A stretch of DNA of 64,000 nucleotides from Croceitalea dokdonensis DOKDO 023 (GTDB lineage: Bacteria > Bacteroidota > Bacteroidia > Flavobacteriales > Flavobacteriaceae): positions 372,001 through 436,000 of the forward strand of contig NZ_LDJX01000002.1 in the NCBI RefSeq assembly GCF_001306415.1, written 5' to 3'. Under the pieces are notes generated by a model that saw only the letters and a list, made by a program, of their open reading frames with translations, was not told the origin of the DNA and did not search any database. Shown one piece after another: positions 23,406 through 30,901 of this stretch (within the stretch, counting starts at the first letter, position 1; every line of letters begins with the position of its first letter). The position numbers were made by a program, and so were the translations under genes.

Positions 23406-24335
23406 ATGACCAAAGTTAACACCTACATACTGGCCTTGGCCACACTCACCCTTGCCATTCCTTTTATGGGCAGGGCACAACAAACGCCCGTATTCTCCGA
23501 ATACAACTACAACCCTTTCCTTATCAACGCGGCCTACGCCGGCGTGGAGAACGGGGCAGAGGCCACTTTGAGCAACTCGGGCTTCAACAGCCAATTCGAT
23601 GGCACGCCCCAAAACCTCTCCTTCACCTTCAACACCCGTTTGAACGAAGGAAAAATGGGCCTTGGCGCAGGTATCATCAATGACCAAATAGGGGTCACCA
23701 ATGCCACCCAAATCTTTGCCGCCTATGCCTACAAAATATACCTGAACGACAATATGCACCCCTATTGGAAGGTCTATGACCGTTCCTTTATTTCTTTTGG
23801 GCTAAGTGCCGGGGCACTGCTGTACAATGAGGACCTCTTGCAACTGGGATTGCAGGGAGACCCCAACTTTGCCGAGAACATCAATGCCACCCTGCCCGCA
23901 GCAGGTATGGGCATCCTCTTTGGACATGCCAATTTCTTTGCGGGGGTGTCCATCCCAAACGTGCTGGGCGATACCTTTGCCAACCAGGACAATATTGAAC
24001 TCTCAAGGCCCATGTACGCATACACGGGCTACCATTTTGCCACCAATAGATATGACCCACAACTTATCCTAAAACCAAGCCTGCTCTTTAAATATGAGAA
24101 CGGGGCTCCCTTTCAGGTGGATGTCAACCTTTCCGCCAACTTTAAGAACGCCTTTGAGCTGGGCGCAGGGTTCAGGACCGGTAACACCTTTAACTTTGTG
24201 GCAGGCTTCTACCTGTTCAAAAACTTTAGGGCGCTCTACAACTATTCACAGATCGCACTGGGAAATGCACCCATTGCTAACACACATGGCATCCTACTCT
24301 CCTATCGCGCCGGGGATGGGTTTGGACGTAGGTGA
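23406..24335 (+). CDS. PorP/SprF family type IX secretion outer-membrane protein
   Basis: A 309-residue outer-membrane protein with a signal peptide (residues 1-24, ending GRAQ) and the family opening FSEYNYNPFLINAAYAG. A series of amphipathic beta strands follows. PorP/SprF proteins are T9SS-associated and are commonly encoded directly after type B substrates, which they help export or anchor. Here it starts 2 bases after the giant repeat protein, so the two are co-transcribed and probably functionally paired. The C-terminus ends in a strand-like segment (LLSYRAGDGFGRR). The gene is a dedicated partner rather than the core sprF of gliding, to judge from context. Confidence 0.92.
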   Translation: MTKVNTYILALATLTLAIPFMGRAQQTPVFSEYNYNPFLINAAYAGVENGAEATLSNSGFNSQFDGTPQNLSFTFNTRLNEGKMGLGAGIINDQIGVTNATQIFAAYAYKIYLNDNMHPYWKVYDRSFISFGLSAGALLYNEDLLQLGLQGDPNFAENINATLPAAGMGILFGHANFFAGVSIPNVLGDTFANQDNIELSRPMYAYTGYHFATNRYDPQLILKPSLLFKYENGAPFQVDVNLSANFKNAFELGAGFRTGNTFNFVAGFYLFKNFRALYNYSQIALGNAPIANTHGILLSYRAGDGFGRR

Positions 24336-24404: not shown

Positions 24405-24485
24405 ATCCCTTGTAGCCGTACCCAGTTTCATTGCGTATTGTTTACCTATGGCATATGTTAATCGGCAATGATATAGTGCCACCAG

Positions 24486-24656
24486 TTGTGCATTTTGAAT
24501 ACTTTTTAGATTTAAAACCGTCAGTTCGAGTTTTTTCTAGAAGAAAAAGTATCGAGAACAAGGTTTCAATGCTAAAATTCTGATTCTCGATACTATTTTC
24601 CGATACCTCGTATCAAAAAATCACTCGAATGGACGAATTTTCATCAAAATGCACAA
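24486..24656 (+). mobile_element. MITE-like element, copy A
   Basis: A 171-bp non-coding element bounded by perfect 13-bp terminal inverted repeats, TTGTGCATTTTGA at the left and its reverse complement at the right. Inside are an 11-bp stem AGTATCGAGAA/TTCTCGATACT, a GATAC-CTC-GTATC stem and an outer TTCGAG/CTCGAA pair, so the whole unit can fold into a multi-arm structure. It matches copy B (30613-30783) in inverted orientation with about 16 mismatches and no gaps in my hand alignment. The flanks TAGTGCC and TAATGCC are a possible degraded target duplication if the ends extend 5 bp outward. It carries no ORF. The source transposase is not in the window. Confidence 0.75.
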
Positions 24657-24950
24657 TAAGTTAATGCCCATTTGAACTATCAATTTTGCCATCATAGGAA
24701 TAAACACGAGTTTTTTAAACAAAAGAATCGGTTGGTTTACTCCAACAGATGTTGCTTTAGGACAAACTGAAAGCACTAGTTGGTTACAATCAAAACTGAC
24801 ATTTTTACAGGGCCTCCACCAAATCCATTGCTGGTAATTATTAATTTTTTTTAAAACATATACGCTAAGGTTAAAATAACCATTTATGGCATTTTTTTTG
24901 TCCGTTTGTGATTGAATATAAAATTATTGTCTAACTAAAATTTTTTACTA
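24657..24950. other. AT-rich leader region before the hsp20 gene
   Basis: No gene was recognised between the MITE-like element and hsp20. The last ~110 bases are strongly AT-rich with T and A runs, as expected for a promoter and leader, but I could not place a convincing TAnnTTTG box. Confidence 0.4.
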
Positions 24951-25427
24951 ATGAGCAATCTAGAAGTAACTAAAAATGGAAGTGTGGCAAGAAATAACCC
25001 CAATGCCATTACCTTCCCAACTTGGTCTAATTGGATTGATGAATTTTTTAACAAAGACCTTTCATCAGTATTCACTTCAAATTTTAATACAGGCATGACG
25101 TTGCCTAAGGTAAATATTAGGGAAACCAAAGACTCCTATTTTGTGGATATGGCCGTTCCGGGGATGAGGAAAGAAGATTTTCATATTGACCTGGACAACC
25201 AAATGTTGTCCATTTCAACAGAAACTAATGAAGAAAACCAAGGCAATGAGGAAAACCATATCCGCCGAGAGTTTGGATACGCCTCGTTTAAGCGGAGCTT
25301 TTCTTTGCCGGAAACCATTGAGGAAGATAAGATCAAAGCTCAATATTCGGAGGGGATTCTTAGTATACACCTTCCCAAAAAAGAGGAAGCCAAACAAAAA
25401 CCGGCACGCACCATTAAGATTTCATAA
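24951..25427 (+). CDS. Hsp20/alpha-crystallin family small heat-shock protein
   Basis: A 158-residue small heat-shock protein, an ATP-independent holdase that keeps unfolded proteins soluble in the cytoplasm. The alpha-crystallin domain spans about residues 46-150, with the conserved VDMAVPGMRKEDFHIDL strand region near 63-79. The final strand ends SEGILSIHLPKKEE, close to the family A-x-x-x-G-x-L motif. The N-terminal arm (about 45 residues) is of normal length. It is followed by a good Rho-independent terminator, so it is a single-gene unit. Confidence 0.93.
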   Translation: MSNLEVTKNGSVARNNPNAITFPTWSNWIDEFFNKDLSSVFTSNFNTGMTLPKVNIRETKDSYFVDMAVPGMRKEDFHIDLDNQMLSISTETNEENQGNEENHIRREFGYASFKRSFSLPETIEEDKIKAQYSEGILSIHLPKKEEAKQKPARTIKIS

Positions 25428-25434
25428 GTTAATT

Positions 25435-25458
25435 GGGGCCGTAAAGGCCCCTTTTATT
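25435..25458 (+). terminator. Rho-independent terminator after hsp20
   Basis: GGGGCC (25435-25440), loop GTAAA, GGCCCC (25446-25451) and then TTTTATTGTTT. A GC stem with a T-rich tail lies 7 bases after the hsp20 stop. Confidence 0.75.
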
Positions 25459-25484
25459 GTTTCATTTTTAAAAATATTCTAGCC

Positions 25485-25973
25485 ATGAAAGATTTTTTAA
25501 CCGTGTTTTTGGCCAGCTTTTTCCTAATTAGTTGCCAAGGGCAGGAAGACGACAAAAAAAACAAGGAACTTGACCACACACTTACAGAAGAACCAAAGGG
25601 AAATTGGAGGGTGCTGCGTGAGTTTGACGATGCTGGAAATTTAATTCGATATGATTCCACTTACTCTTGGTCCTACTCTGAGGGTCCAGCTAATTTTAAG
25701 CTCAGGGACGGGGACAGCATCTTTAAATCATTCCGTTCCCAAATCTCCAAGGGGTTTACTGGTATGGCGGACGTCTTTGGCGACGGCTTGTCCGAACAAG
25801 ATTCCCTATTTATGAAACCGTTCTTTTCCGATGACTTTTTTGAAAACCAATTTGGAAAAGACTTCATGGACTTGGATAACATTAGACAACGTATGGAAGC
25901 CATACAGCGACGCTTATTGGAACGCCATCATCTTAAATTGCAGAAAAACGAAGCACCAATGGATAAAATTTGA
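25485..25973 (+). CDS. Small lipoprotein of unknown function
   Basis: A 162-residue predicted lipoprotein with a short signal peptide and lipobox FLISC (Cys17), followed by a charged linker. The rest is hydrophilic, rich in Asp, Phe and Ser, with a likely helical, Arg-rich C-terminus (about residues 125-155). I do not recognise a domain. It lies after the hsp20 terminator and converges on the pseudouridine synthase gene. Confidence 0.6.
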   Translation: MKDFLTVFLASFFLISCQGQEDDKKNKELDHTLTEEPKGNWRVLREFDDAGNLIRYDSTYSWSYSEGPANFKLRDGDSIFKSFRSQISKGFTGMADVFGDGLSEQDSLFMKPFFSDDFFENQFGKDFMDLDNIRQRMEAIQRRLLERHHLKLQKNEAPMDKI

Positions 25974-26051
25974 ACAACAGCGATATTTTATAAGCTCCGT
26001 CTAGATAGTCCATTCAAATCCCATTTTATGCGCTGAGTGCAACTATGTTAT

Positions 26052-26075
26052 GGTAGGGTTATATGTATCCCTACC
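26052..26075. terminator. Hairpin between convergent genes
   Basis: GGTAGGG (26052-26058) and CCCTACC (26069-26075) form a 7-bp perfect stem with a 10-base loop. It lies in the gap between a plus-strand lipoprotein gene and the minus-strand rluB-like gene. It would be a shared terminator-type structure, although neither side has a clear T tract. Confidence 0.4.
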
Positions 26076-26116
26076 TAAGTAGTTGGGGTCACCAAAAGAA
26101 TTGAGGTCCTAGACAA

Positions 26117-26989
26117 TCACTCCTCTCCTATTTTAACATTCCCCAAATTAATTACTTCCTGTGGCGTAAGATTGCGCCAATGGCCGCGTGGCAGGTCTTT
26201 TTTGGTCAGGCCGGCAAAAACAACACGGTCCAGTTTGGTTACGGTATAGCCAAGGTGTTCAAAAATCCGCCGCACAATTCGGTTTCTCCCGGAATGGATT
26301 TCAATTCCTACTTCTCGCTTGGGTGCTCCCTGAATATAGGCAACTTCATCAACATTCACCGCCCCATCTTCCAGTTCCAGTCCGCCTTGAATCTGTTTTA
26401 AATCTGCCGCAGTCAAATTTTTATCGAGCACTACATGGTAGATTTTTCGAACCCCAAATTTTGGATGCGTCAATTTTTTAGCCATATCCCCATCATTGGT
26501 AAATAGCAATAGTCCTGTTGTTGCCCGGTCCAATCTTCCTACGGGATAAAGGCGGTTATTGGATGCGCTGGAAACCAGTTCCATAACCGTACGCCTCCCC
26601 TTTTCGTCATTGGTGGTGGTGATAAATCCTTTGGGTTTATTCAGTAGTACATATTCCTTTTTCTCCGGATTCAATCTTCTTCCATCATAACGCACATCAT
26701 CAGTTCGCTTAACTTTATAACCCATTTCTGAAACCACCTTACCATTTACGGTGACACTACCTGCCGCTATATAGACATCAGCCTCACGGCGGGAACAAAC
26801 CCCGGCATTGGCAATGTATTTATTTAACCGCACCTCATCTGGGTTGGTATTGGTTTTTGGGGGTGCACTTCGCTTTCGGTTGGGGTTGTGCTTTGGGAAT
26901 GGTTTCTTCTTAAAACCACCTTGGGTAGCGGCGCTTTTTTTAGGATTGGAATTGGGTTTGCGTTTGCCTTTATCGTCTGATTTCGCCAT
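26117..26989 (-). CDS. RsuA/RluB-family 23S rRNA pseudouridine synthase
   Basis: A 290-residue pseudouridine synthase. An N-terminal ~50-residue Lys/Pro/Asn-rich basic tail is followed by an S4 RNA-binding domain (RLNKYIANAGVCSRREAD, residues 54-71) and a catalytic domain with the family signature GRLDRATTGLL, in which D154 is the catalytic aspartate. It isomerises a uridine in rRNA, most likely the 23S position modified by RluB or RluE/F-type enzymes (the exact site is not readable). The basic tail is common in Bacteroidota homologues. It is divergent from the S9 peptidase gene. Confidence 0.92.
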   Translation of the reverse strand: MAKSDDKGKRKPNSNPKKSAATQGGFKKKPFPKHNPNRKRSAPPKTNTNPDEVRLNKYIANAGVCSRREADVYIAAGSVTVNGKVVSEMGYKVKRTDDVRYDGRRLNPEKKEYVLLNKPKGFITTTNDEKGRRTVMELVSSASNNRLYPVGRLDRATTGLLLFTNDGDMAKKLTHPKFGVRKIYHVVLDKNLTAADLKQIQGGLELEDGAVNVDEVAYIQGAPKREVGIEIHSGRNRIVRRIFEHLGYTVTKLDRVVFAGLTKKDLPRGHWRNLTPQEVINLGNVKIGEE

Positions 26990-27145
26990 CAGTCATTATT
27001 TTTTGGCGAAGGTAGTGATTGCCAATTACCATCGCACTACGCGATCACAAACTTTTCTGCCCGCGCCAGCACAACTTCCTTGGTTTCCTTCCCAATTTTA
27101 ATGCGTTTACCCCTATATTTAGGGAGAACTTAAGACCATAACCGT

Positions 27146-29938
27146 ATGAAAAGTTATTCCGTTATCTTCTGTCTCTTTTGCACCCTAGCGCTAGTTGCCC
27201 AAAAAAAGGTCTTGGACCACGAAGACTACGACCTCTGGAGCACCGTTGAAGGGGAAAAGCTATCGCCGAATGGGGATTTTGTGCTCTACAGTTTGGAACG
27301 GGGGGAAAGAGACCATTTCTTTACCATAAAGAACGCCAATGGTGACCTTATTTTGGAACATGACCGTGGGCAAGATGGGCATTTTACCTATGATTCGCGT
27401 TTTGTGCTCTTTACCATCAAGGCGTGGCAGGATTCTATAAAGGGCATGAAAAAGCGTAAGGTCAAAAAAAAGGATTTACCCAAGGACTCCCTAGGCATCA
27501 TTAACCTATCCAACAAAAAACTGACCAAAATACCCAACATCAAATCATTTAAAATTCCTGAGAAATGGGCCGGATATGTGGCATATCAAATAGAGAATAT
27601 TAAAAAGGAGGAAGGAAAAGACTCCATAGGCACCAAAGAAAAGAAAAAGAACAAGCCCAAAAAGATAGGTAAAGACAATGGCTACCCTTTGGTTTTAAGG
27701 GATTTATCAACTGGCAACCAAGACACCATCAAGTTTGTTACTGATTATATTTTTGCGAAAAAGGGCAAATGGTTGGCCTACACCTCTACGGGTGACAGCA
27801 CCAAGGCCAACCACGGTGTTTATGTCAAAAACCTAGAACGGGGAAACACCCTAAAAATACATGAAGCTCCAAAGGCAAAATACTTTAAACTTAACTTTAG
27901 CGAATCTGGAAGGAAACTCGGCTTTGTGGTGGATACGGATACCACAAAAGCACAACTGCGCCCCCATGAGCTTTATCTTTGGGAAGTTGGCGGGCAAACA
28001 GCTCAAAAGCTTGTGGATAACGCTTCCAGTCCCAAAGGGTATGTGGTATCAAAATACGGGGATGTCCATTTTTCCAAAGATGAATCAAAGTTATTTTTTG
28101 GTTTGGCCAAACCGCCCATTGAAAAAGACACCTCCCTACTGGATGAAGAAATTGTGAACGTAGAAGTGTGGACCTATGACGAACCCAAATTGTACACGGT
28201 TCAGGAACTTCAATTAAAAAATGACAGCATACGCTCCTTTACCACAGCAGTAAGGCTAAAAGACAAAAAACTGCTGCCTTTGGCCAATGCTACCTATATG
28301 AATACGGAATTGGGCGATGAGGGGAATGCCAAATGGGCCTTGACCTCCACTAGTTTGCCCTATGAGTTGGAAAGCCAGTGGACCGCCCGGCGTAACTATG
28401 ACTACAGGCTGGTGAGCACCCAGACCGGGGAATCGCTCTTACAGCTTACCAATGTGCCCAGAATGGGTCTAAGTCCTAAAGCAACATATGGTTACGGCTA
28501 TAGCCGGGTAGATAGCACTTGGTTTGCCTATGATTTGGACAAGGGGACCTACCGTGACCTTACTAAGGGAAAAACGTTTTTCAATGAGGAAAACGATTAC
28601 CCCAATTTTCCTTGGGCGTACGGTACGGCCGGATGGACCAAGGATGATCAAGCCATTATTCTGTATGATAGGTATGATTTGTTCAGCTGTAATCCAAAAA
28701 CGGGCGAGCATACCCGTTTGACCAATGGAAGGGCTACAAAAACAGTATACCGTTATCGTGAACTGGATGATAAGGCGCTTTTTATAGACCCCAATAAAAA
28801 ATGGCTGTTAACTACTTTTAATGAGACCACAAAGGATGCAGGCTTTGCGGAATTCAATCCTAAAAACAACAGCATTAAAAAGTTGGTAGAAGGACCATAC
28901 CGCTATGCAAATATTCAACAAGCAAAAAATGATGAGACCATTATCTATACACGAGAGTCATTTGAACAATTCCCAGATTTACGGTTAACCGATCGGAGCT
29001 TTAAGAAAGACATTAAGCTTAGTAATGCCAACCCACAACAAGCACAGTATAACTGGGGCACCATTGAATTGGTGGAATGGACCTCTTTGGACGGAAAAAC
29101 TTTACAGGGACAATTGGTAAAACCAGAAAATTTTGACCCCAATAAAAAGTACCCTTTACTGGTTAATTTCTATGAAAAAAGCTCAGATGGCATCCATAGG
29201 CACCGCTATCCAAAACCGGAGCGTTCCACTATCAATTACAGCTTTTTTGCCAGTCGTGGGTATGTGATTTTTAATCCTGATGTGGAGTACCGCGTTGGCT
29301 ATCCTGGCGAGAGTGCTTATAATTGTGTCATTCCCGGGGTAACCTCCTTGATTGAAAAAGGTTTTATTGACAAGGACAATATTGGGGTACAAGGCCATAG
29401 TTGGGGTGGGTACCAAATTGCTTATCTGGTAACCAAAACCGATATTTTTAAAGCTGCGGAATCTGGGGCACCGGTACCCAACATGATCAGTGCCTACGGC
29501 GGAATTAGATGGTGGACGGGTCTAAGCAGGCAATTTCAATATGAGCATACCCAAAGTAGAATTGGCGGCACGCCTTGGGAATATCCTGCGCGTTACATAG
29601 AAAACTCCCCTATTTTCAATATTGATAAAATCAACACGCCATTATTAATCATGCATAATGATGCTGATGGTCATGTACCATGGTACCAAGGAATCGAATT
29701 TTTTGTGAGTTTACGAAGATTGGGCAAACCCTCTTGGTTTTTGAACTATAACGGCGAACCGCATTGGCCCTTAAAATATCAGAACCGAACGGACTTTAGT
29801 ATTCGTATGGCCCAGTTTTTTGATCATTATTTAAAAGGAGAACCAAAGCCCATGTGGATGGAACGGGGCGTACCACCAATGGAAAAGGGGATACTACAGG
29901 GGTATGAATTGATGGGCGTTACTTCGGACAAAAAGTAA
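27146..29938 (+). CDS. S9 family prolyl-oligopeptidase-type serine peptidase, secreted
   Basis: A 930-residue exported peptidase: signal peptide (residues 1-18, LVAQ end), a long beta-propeller-like region (~30-640) and a C-terminal alpha/beta-hydrolase domain. The catalytic triad is readable: Ser752 in GHSWGGYQ, Asp841 in HNDADGHV and His873 in GEPHWPL. Such enzymes cleave oligopeptides, often after Pro or Ala, in the periplasm or at the surface of Bacteroidota. A Lys-rich insert near residues 155-180 in the propeller region is unusual in composition. Monocistronic by position; the specificity is unknown. Confidence 0.9.
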   Translation: MKSYSVIFCLFCTLALVAQKKVLDHEDYDLWSTVEGEKLSPNGDFVLYSLERGERDHFFTIKNANGDLILEHDRGQDGHFTYDSRFVLFTIKAWQDSIKGMKKRKVKKKDLPKDSLGIINLSNKKLTKIPNIKSFKIPEKWAGYVAYQIENIKKEEGKDSIGTKEKKKNKPKKIGKDNGYPLVLRDLSTGNQDTIKFVTDYIFAKKGKWLAYTSTGDSTKANHGVYVKNLERGNTLKIHEAPKAKYFKLNFSESGRKLGFVVDTDTTKAQLRPHELYLWEVGGQTAQKLVDNASSPKGYVVSKYGDVHFSKDESKLFFGLAKPPIEKDTSLLDEEIVNVEVWTYDEPKLYTVQELQLKNDSIRSFTTAVRLKDKKLLPLANATYMNTELGDEGNAKWALTSTSLPYELESQWTARRNYDYRLVSTQTGESLLQLTNVPRMGLSPKATYGYGYSRVDSTWFAYDLDKGTYRDLTKGKTFFNEENDYPNFPWAYGTAGWTKDDQAIILYDRYDLFSCNPKTGEHTRLTNGRATKTVYRYRELDDKALFIDPNKKWLLTTFNETTKDAGFAEFNPKNNSIKKLVEGPYRYANIQQAKNDETIIYTRESFEQFPDLRLTDRSFKKDIKLSNANPQQAQYNWGTIELVEWTSLDGKTLQGQLVKPENFDPNKKYPLLVNFYEKSSDGIHRHRYPKPERSTINYSFFASRGYVIFNPDVEYRVGYPGESAYNCVIPGVTSLIEKGFIDKDNIGVQGHSWGGYQIAYLVTKTDIFKAAESGAPVPNMISAYGGIRWWTGLSRQFQYEHTQSRIGGTPWEYPARYIENSPIFNIDKINTPLLIMHNDADGHVPWYQGIEFFVSLRRLGKPSWFLNYNGEPHWPLKYQNRTDFSIRMAQFFDHYLKGEPKPMWMERGVPPMEKGILQGYELMGVTSDKK

Positions 29939-29964
29939 TTCCAGTCACGTTTACAAGTATCTTC

Positions 29965-30576
29965 TCAATTCTTTTTAGAGAGGTCCAGCCAATCTGGAAC
30001 GGTTTTAAAGCTGTTGTTTTGGTATCTTTGGATAGTGTTTTTAAGGGTTACGGGGTCGTACTCCATCCAATCTATTTGTTCTTTAATCTTTAAATTGTCA
30101 TCAAATTGCAACCAAATGGTAAACTCCATTCCCCAATCGGTATCCACTAGAATACCATCATAATAATATGGACTTATGCGGCCTTTACAGGCAACTGTTT
30201 TTCCTTCCACCACCAATGAGGTCACATTTAAGTGTGGTTGCCCAGCATACAGTTTCTTAAATCTCTGTCCCTCCTCATCCCATTGGTAAAACCGTTTTAA
30301 CTGCCACAGACTATCGAGTTCCAATTGCAGCGTAATGTCTTTAAAGCGAACATCTTGCCTGTAAAAGGAACAGAACACATCCCAATTGGAGCGTTCTGCA
30401 AAGGTCTTAAAATAGGCCTTGGCCACTTGGCGTACTGCTTCCTCTTGTTTTTTTTCTTCCGGCTTTTGGATGTCTAGGCAACTATTTGCCGTTATAAAAA
30501 TCAGGAGTAAACATAGGCCTCTTAAAACTCCAATACTTTTATGAATTGTTACGTGATTTACCTCCCTGATAACCAT
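29965..30576 (-). CDS. SnoaL/NTF2-like lipoprotein
   Basis: A predicted lipoprotein of 203 residues with an NTF2/SnoaL-like cone fold (residues ~45-190). The helix AYFKTFAERSNWDVFCSFY and the strand pair ending GMEFTIWLQFDDNLKIKEQ fit a small ligand-binding or enzymatic cavity. The lipobox is TANSC (Cys33 from this start). The open frame runs on to 30639, but its first 21 codons enter the MITE-like element B, so the Met at 30576 is preferred. The ligand is unknown. Confidence 0.65.
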   Translation of the reverse strand: MVIREVNHVTIHKSIGVLRGLCLLLIFITANSCLDIQKPEEKKQEEAVRQVAKAYFKTFAERSNWDVFCSFYRQDVRFKDITLQLELDSLWQLKRFYQWDEEGQRFKKLYAGQPHLNVTSLVVEGKTVACKGRISPYYYDGILVDTDWGMEFTIWLQFDDNLKIKEQIDWMEYDPVTLKNTIQRYQNNSFKTVPDWLDLSKKN

Positions 30577-30612
30577 AGAAAAACTTGATATAAATATACT
30601 GAACCAAACCCA

Positions 30613-30783
30613 TTGTGCATTTTGATTAAAATTCGTCAATTCCAGTGATTTTAAGATACGAAGTATCGTAAAATGGTATCGAGAATCAGAATTTTAGCAA
30701 TGAAACCTAGTTCTCGATACTATTTCTTCCAGAAAAAGCTCGAACTCACGGTTTTAAATCTAAAAAGCATTCAAAATGAACAA
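30613..30783 (-). mobile_element. MITE-like element, copy B (inverted relative to copy A)
   Basis: The 171-bp partner of the element at 24486-24656, lying on the opposite strand. Terminal repeats are TTGTGCATTTTGA on the left and the same with one mismatch on the right. The inverted ends can be extended to about 18 bp (30608-30625 and 30771-30788), and directly outside that, TGAACCAA occurs on both sides (30600-30607 and 30789-30796). This is an 8-bp direct repeat as expected for a transposition target duplication. It supplies the sequence upstream of the NTF2-like lipoprotein gene, and so may carry its promoter. Confidence 0.78.
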
Positions 30784-30901
30784 CGGGTTGAACCAAATAA
30801 AACCTTTTCCAGTTGATGACTTTAGCGTAAGAAAACGCCAATAAAATCCAGTATGCTTCAATTTCATATGTTTAGGACAGCGGGAACCCATAAATATGGA
30901 A

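Follow-up and report, generated by a model that had tools for sequence, protein, structure and literature searches.

A 64,000-nucleotide stretch of the Croceitalea dokdonensis DOKDO 023 genome (contig NZ_LDJX01000002.1, positions 372,001 to 436,000; hereafter the window) carries two inverted copies of a short element that is very probably a 181-bp miniature inverted-repeat transposable element (MITE), moved by a transposase of the IS982 family and carrying as its cargo a conserved pair of hairpins that most likely serves the element itself. The initial annotation had described the pair as ungapped matches of 171 bases (24486-24656 against the reverse complement of 30613-30783) with about 16 differences, and the exact count is indeed 16. 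The inverted repeats that it placed at the termini (TTGTGCATTTTGA...TCAAAATGCACAA in copy 1, and TTGTTCATTTTGA at one end of copy 2) are real but reach beyond those limits: alignment of all copies with their flanks puts the true ends 5 bp further out on each side, giving an element with the termini ACCCRTTGTGCATTTTGA ... TCAAAATGCACAAYGGGT, in which the opposite terminus is the inverse of ACCCRTTGTGCATTTTGA. Over the full 181 bp, which is too short for a transposase gene, the two copies differ at 19 positions.

Copies with fixed ends of the IS982 type

Across the whole genome (3.88 Mb, 16 contigs) we found 21 near-full copies at 91-100% identity, so the likeness of the pair in the window is not due to chance; identity to copy 1 is 91-96%. 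Both ends are present in all 21, with at most 3 mismatches in 17 bases per end in 20 of them and 5 at one end of the remaining copy (L018). Target duplications of 7-8 bp, counted where at least 6 of 7 or 7 of 8 flanking bases match, border 13 of the 21 copies, against a mean of 0.76 and a maximum of 5 when flanks were randomly re-paired in 5,000 permutations. Diverged copies occur in three of the seven other genomes of the genus (four of eight with its own), and none was found in phage and plasmid collections. Both halves of the proposal that the pair belongs to a non-autonomous transposable element or a structured dispersed repeat are supported: its refuting condition, no copies beyond these two and none in relatives or a lack of fixed ends elsewhere, does not apply.

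A search for the end by itself (17 bases, allowing 3 mismatches) brings in older relatives in the same genome that have decayed, including end pairs 201-202 bp apart at C14:142138 and C9:691131. The best explanation is that 21 copies arose in a recent burst in a genome that already contained older, decayed ones. Two older relatives of 201-202 bp, L031 (639-840) and L032 (632-832), have good ends and decayed interior boxes, and perhaps represent a second subfamily.

Ends of the form AC...GT, together with target duplications of about 8 bp, are traits of the IS982 family, in which duplications are 7-9 bp long, and these traits prompted a comparison with that family. The IS982 transposase domain PF13612 is matched in 16 of 149 genomes of the family Flavobacteriaceae, and 30 IS982 loci (L079-L108) from this search were taken for the comparison of ends. 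Three of them have inverted ends close to those of the element, spaced 966-979 bp apart: L092 (ACCCGTTGTGCATTTAGG / AACCGTTGTGCATTTAGA), L094 (ACCCGTAGTGCATTTATA / ACCCGTAGTGCATTTAGA) and L099 (ACCCGTTGTACATTATGG / ACCCGTTGTGCATTTTAA); a fourth, L100, shows one such end. The consensus end of the element equals the left end of L092 over its first 15 bases, L099 is flanked by an 8-bp duplication, TAATAGTA, and the proteins of L100 and L092 score 218 and 189 bits against the NCBIfam IS982 model (cut-off 130). Since loci with such closely similar ends encode proteins that score so highly, we regard the element as a MITE with IS982 ends. It has the inverted ends of IS982, duplications of IS982 length and the short, gene-less, multi-copy body with fixed ends expected of this kind of MITE. 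The initial annotation had also suggested looking for a full transposon with the same ends; these four loci (L100 by one end) supply it in other genera of the family, and none was found in its own genome or genus.

The hairpin-pair cargo

The matching internal stems that had been noticed in the two window copies are two inverted copies of a single unit, x-TTCGAG-(variable stem-loop)-TATCGAGAA-x'. The unit is absent from all 30 IS982 loci (L079-L108); the interior is not a deletion derivative of a parental insertion sequence, an origin that not every MITE has. An exact-box search (TTCGAGT, 10-40 bases, GTATCGAGAA) found it in six of the eight genomes of the genus, with 37 instances in G006 and 33 in C. 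dokdonensis, where 11 lie outside the 21 copies, while the same box pattern read backwards gave one match in total across the eight genomes.

What lies between the boxes changes in sequence and mostly stays paired. The stem-loop inserts number 79 distinct sequences among the genus loci and 77 among the named elements from other genera (below), and no insert was seen in both the genus set and the 8-kb named loci; their mean best stems are 5.8 and 6.1 bp, respectively, against 2.1 bp after shuffling, and stems of at least 5 pairs occur in 65 of the 79 and 64 of the 77. Pairing extends by one base beyond the boxes: 73 of 86 and 77 of 90 instances pair there, with 32.6 and 34.8 expected from shuffling, and there is no signal further out. 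We aligned 37 elements (34 of the 38 non-redundant named ones, leaving out L169, L177, L201 and L245, plus L003, L017 and L050) to examine the fold. In the local fold, 93.1% of cells are paired, falling to 34-58% when the fold is slid by 1-3 columns; cells with double changes number 84 against 28.7 after shuffling, and the covariation of the local hairpins (0.315 against 0.117 shuffled) was reached by none of 500 shuffles. Both window copies also fold as single-stranded DNA better than 200 of 200 shuffles (z = -7.3 for copy 1 and -3.6 for copy 2). The boxes are conserved and the spacers between ends and boxes are not. Judging by the letters of the boxes, the facing CGAG and CGAG strands might make a tandem of G.A mismatches bounded by C-G pairs, with an unpaired TAT beside it.

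A cloverleaf of long-range stems was considered and rejected: it pairs in 95% of cells, but its covariation (0.055) hardly differs from that of shuffled alignments (0.052) and was reached by 77 of 500. RNAalifold returned no structure for alignment A3, perhaps because of gappy rows, and Rfam at its gathering threshold has no matches in the window.

Variants of the unit were seen in passing. L025 (G000:C9:17824-20868) holds, at about 1260-2010 of the locus, an array made up of the unit and its inverted counterpart, repeated in part at intervals of about 68 bp, with no IS982 ends visible by eye. L124 (G005, about 240-400 of the locus) may be a one-hairpin version of the MITE, with a single unit between degraded ends, and L136 (G003) and L138 (G004) contain direct repeats of a related half unit, ACGAAATCACTCGAAGTCCC. 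In L066, L109, L114 and L143 other small repeats (CCTGCCGGCAGG-like and CACTTCGAC..CTCAG-like) lie within the unit's stem-loop, as would be expected of a loop that attracts insertions.

Distribution, end types and proposed mechanism

Covariance model R1, searched against genomes within the class, matches 65 of 149 family genomes, one per genus and with C. dokdonensis included (E ≤ 1e-4). Across the class it matches 15 of 198 genomes (E ≤ 1e-6), of which five belong to the same family (C. dokdonensis included), one lies elsewhere in the order and nine fall in other orders; at most 17 (family) and 13 (class) candidates were scored per genome, so copy numbers are lower bounds. A scan blind to the interior, for two 10-base ends at the right distance in the genome_contigs collection (84,980 species), gave at least 112 matches in at least 111 stretches. 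Among the matches listed, 77 of 112 contain one unit in each orientation, with at most 3 substitutions per unit. Ends resembling ACCC/GGGT accompany 76 of these 77 and a duplication 60, compared with 8 and 5 of the 35 listed matches that lack the pair and that include, by title, unrelated bacteria such as Helicobacter (L154), Paenibacillus (L164) and Clostridia (L186). The paired element is present in at least 15 named genera (L144-L223): Aquimarina, Polaribacter, Chryseobacterium, Kordia, Zobellia, Tenacibaculum, Wenyingzhuangia, Seonamhaeicola, Aestuariivivens, Lutibacter, Maribacter, Snuella, Urechidicola, Flavivirga and Ulvibacterium. Chryseobacterium and Polaribacter represent two families of the class Flavobacteriia, in which we presume the other 13 genera also belong.

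An inverted pair of palindromic units recalls a bacterial interspersed mosaic element (BIME) built from repetitive extragenic palindromic (REP) units and spread by a REP-associated tyrosine transposase (RAYT; HUH, Y1), in which case the IS982-like ends would be incidental. Solitary units and arrays without insertion-sequence ends do occur, and excerpts of PMC6006769 describe Bacteroidetes TnpA-REP genes of subclass 2.6 flanked by atypical hairpins with genomic copies elsewhere. Such an origin is nonetheless highly improbable here. Y1_Tnp was not found in the C. dokdonensis genome, and its presence in 58 of 149 family genomes is unrelated to that of the element: it occurs in 24 of the 65 genomes positive for the element and in 34 of the other 84 (p = 0.74). 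The box unit, allowing one substitution, lies within about 1.5 kb of Y1 matches in none of 40 chosen stretches, 24 of them in element-positive genomes, whereas the control recovered all 21 of the genome's own copies. The consensus before the box is GTCA and does not fit the GT[AG]G foot of RAYT-type REPs, a foot that the atypical REPs of Bacteroidetes may also lack. Both the target duplications and the IS982 ends would be left unexplained.

The same cargo is found between ends of three types. From the best rows of the family and class scans we took 87 stretches around R1 matches, of which 81 contain a strict core and 6 contain none, and scored their ends by strict rules, as looser ones take hairpin boxes for T3 ends. 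T1 ends (ACCCGTTGTGCATTT), the type of L092, frame 10 of the 81 cored loci, in eight genomes; T2 ends (ACCCGTTGGGTGTAATTA) frame seven, in G054 and G134; and T3 ends (ACGTGAGTTCGA/ACCTCAGTTCGA) frame nine, all in G145. Shuffled flanks were scored as T1-T3 in 0 of 1,620 cases. Exact duplications of 8 bp flank four of nine paired T2 loci and of 9 bp two of nine (0 of 72 cross-pairs each), and 5-bp duplications flank four of nine T3 loci (1 of 72 cross-pairs). In G054 the ends of the T2 MITEs differ by 1-2 of 18 bases per end from those of L089, an IS982 element of the same genome with an unbroken 294-residue gene, and T3-like ends occur on IS982 loci L081-L083, L085 and L097, in genomes other than G145. 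The proteins of L089 (T2) and of L081 and L083 (T3) score 249-267 bits against the IS982 model. T1 and T2 transposases are 60-65% identical to each other and only about 25-33% identical to those of T3 over 121-193 residues, and in G145 elements of types T1 and T3 share one cargo. The cargo may date back to the split of these transposases, or ends may have been exchanged around it, exchange being the simpler of the two. An autonomous relative shares the genome with its MITEs in G054 (T2, L089) and in G145 (T1, L092, whose gene is possibly truncated), and none was found in C. dokdonensis; we do not hold a parent in the same genome to be a defining criterion because parents can be lost.

Could the interior be a neutral passenger, alike across genera only because a few master MITEs recently spread horizontally? 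The copies within the genome are very alike, the distribution is patchy both among the family's genera and within the genus, and other interiors can lie between T1 ends. We consider this improbable: the boxes are conserved where the spacers next to them are not, the two sets of inserts have no sequence in common and yet most keep a stem of 5 pairs or more, and one cargo accompanies three end types, one of them served by distant transposases.

Strong structural covariation would also suit a device useful to the host, whether a bidirectional terminator, an mRNA stabilizer or a protein-binding site, with the MITE merely dispersing it. REP units elsewhere bind proteins, stabilize mRNA or end transcription, as excerpts of PMC6006769 relate; a T-rich spacer adjoins the units; and the many fetched R1 matches that keep the core and have none of the three end types (55 of 81) point the same way, although that set was picked for an intact core, which makes end loss within it an unfair comparison. 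The evidence from the genome's own copies makes a host device unlikely. A simple scan for terminators, which covered copy 1, found none inside it, and the 21 insertions show no preference for convergent genes (3 convergent, 14 tandem, 3 divergent and 1 unclear). In 10 older copies found by one end, the boxes stand at 0.68 and the other end at 0.70 (0.55 and 0.49 shuffled), or at 0.67 and 0.64 without the two copies whose other end was also a search match. The sample is small, its alignment rough and its copies picked by eye, and seven (L040-L046) of the 16 loci with additional end matches (L031-L046) were left out as having no likeness inside, which favours the boxes. The similar extent of decay in the boxes and at the free end speaks against upkeep of the boxes by the host at each site.

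We therefore return to a MITE whose cargo benefits the mobile element. The spacers diverge but the cargo is retained and recurs with two other IS982 end types, which makes the mobile element, rather than the host, its most likely beneficiary; because a host function after insertion is unsupported, we favour, with moderate confidence, an advantage at the level of the element. A transposase of the IS982 family, acting in trans, would recognize the 18-bp ends and move the element by the DDE route into AT-rich sites, leaving duplications of 7-8 bp. The TTCGAG and TATCGAGAA boxes frame a stem-loop that changes in sequence while staying paired, and the benefit of the cargo could come from the folding of a single strand while the element is replicated or transposed, or from softened effects of insertion. 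The genus would have lost its IS982 and the copies in C. dokdonensis would at present be orphans.

A more independent cargo is possible, if less likely. Because most fetched R1 matches have none of the three end types, the hairpin pair may be a selfish module that repeatedly gains new IS982 ends. Some factor other than a Y1/HUH transposase or IS982 would then read it in the form of a folded single strand, with its conserved facing CGAG boxes, the possible tandem G.A mismatches and the TAT bulge. The unit's outer box, GTCAGTTCGAG, resembles the T3 end ACSTSAGTTCGA of IS982 loci L081-L083, L085 and L097, which may show where the unit came from: it may descend from an older IS982 MITE nested in younger ones.

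Several observations weigh against an IS982-driven MITE with an element-serving cargo. No match to PF13612 was found in the C. dokdonensis genome and no IS982 gene in any of the eight genomes of the genus, two of which are only 54% and 88% complete; with no transposase at hand, the copies look orphaned and mobilization in this genome is something we infer. A clear duplication is absent from 8 of the 21 copies, and L092, L094 and L089 have no clear duplication of their own. A search for an empty site through a neighbouring gene turned up only one diverged relative (39% identical), which was not used, and revealed no empty site. The element is no commoner where an IS982 gene is present (8 of 16 genomes with the gene against 57 of 133 without, p = 0.60), and G064 has an IS982 with T1 ends and no covariance-model match. 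The cored loci outside the three end types suggest that the pair may exist on its own, and the parallel decay of boxes and free end belongs here as well. Finally, among the matches listed, six of the eight T1-ended, pair-less named ones have another interior (L182, L200, L207, L209, L228 and L240), so the cargo is not strictly needed for T1 ends to move; the other two (L165 and L246), in which no pair was scored, look like degraded pairs. L182 and L228 resemble each other by eye, and T1 ends may carry a further MITE family.

The window copies, related elements and significance

The features of both copies are collected in Table 1. Copy 1 has a PorP/SprF-type secretion gene (23406-24335) on one side and an Hsp20-type gene (24951-25427) on the other; the reading frames on either side of copy 2 match no NCBIfam model. 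The outer 5 bp, the target duplications, the link to IS982 and the recognition of one covarying unit in two inverted copies go beyond the initial annotation.

Table 1. Positions of the two MITE copies and their parts within the window
Feature	Position	Strand	Basis
MITE copy 1 (L001), 181 bp	24481..24661	+	genome search, alignment of copies
Copy 1 left terminal inverted repeat, ACCAGTTGTGCATTTTGA	24481..24498	+	aligned copies
Copy 1 right terminal inverted repeat	24644..24661	-	aligned copies
Copy 1 left hairpin unit, GTTCGAG...TATCGAGAAC	24524..24559	+	box/stem-loop unit
Copy 1 right hairpin unit, inverted, ATTCGAG...TATCGAGAAT	24583..24630	-	box/stem-loop unit
Copy 1 degraded target duplication, TAGTGCC and partner TAATGCC	24474..24480 and 24662..24668	.	
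MITE copy 2 (L020), 181 bp	30608..30788	-	genome search, alignment of copies
Copy 2 left hairpin unit	30710..30745	-	box/stem-loop unit
Copy 2 right hairpin unit, inverted	30639..30686	+	box/stem-loop unit
Copy 2 terminal inverted repeat, ACCCGTTGTTCATTTTGA	30771..30788	-	aligned copies
Copy 2 other terminal inverted repeat, ACCCATTGTGCATTTTGA	30608..30625	+	aligned copies
Copy 2 perfect 8-bp target duplication, TGAACCAA	30600..30607 (low side) and 30789..30796 (high side)	.	

Like bcr1, RUP, NEMIS and ERIC, which occur in other phyla and depend on other transposases, the element is about 100-200 bp long and has inverted ends, secondary structure and no gene. We know of none among these four with an interior common to several kinds of end. 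IS982 insertion sequences share with the element the end (15 bases with L092) and the 8-bp duplication (L099); the element lacks their transposase. The same four structured bacterial MITEs are named in PMC3733652. IS982-derived MITEs are a known kind, on the evidence of MITECca01/02 of Cardinium, which are about 240 bp long (PMC9769881). These resemble the present element in being short and gene-less, with IS982-family ends and many copies in a member of the Bacteroidota; they differ in belonging to one Cardinium lineage, with parental sequence next to the end and an intact parent in the same genome, whereas here the end alone is shared, the interior is a hairpin pair, the hosts belong to many genera, and a parent was not found in this genus. 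REP, BIME and REPIN (REP doublet forming a hairpin) sequences associated with RAYTs are also short palindromic units in inverted pairs and arrays (PMC6006769, PMC3733652). The element departs from them in its stem sequence, which differs in nearly every copy, its flanking boxes, the lack of a Y1 gene nearby (40 stretches) and its IS982 ends with duplications. Searches of the open-licence PMC literature brought up no MITE of Flavobacteriia with a covarying hairpin pair common to three end types, and a search for the box strings in paper texts gave, among the matches listed, no title on flavobacterial repeats. A 2025 survey of REPs tabulates two Flavobacterium genomes, and its repeats may or may not include the hairpin unit (PMC12306157).

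MITEs are normally defined by their ends, with interiors that drift. Here many genera share a conserved interior, which occurs with three kinds of IS982 end, one of them that of a distant transposase group. Covariance model R1 and the box patterns provide a handle for annotating a repeat with matches in 65 of 149 genera of the family, and the finding makes it possible to test whether a cargo can help a non-autonomous element to spread.

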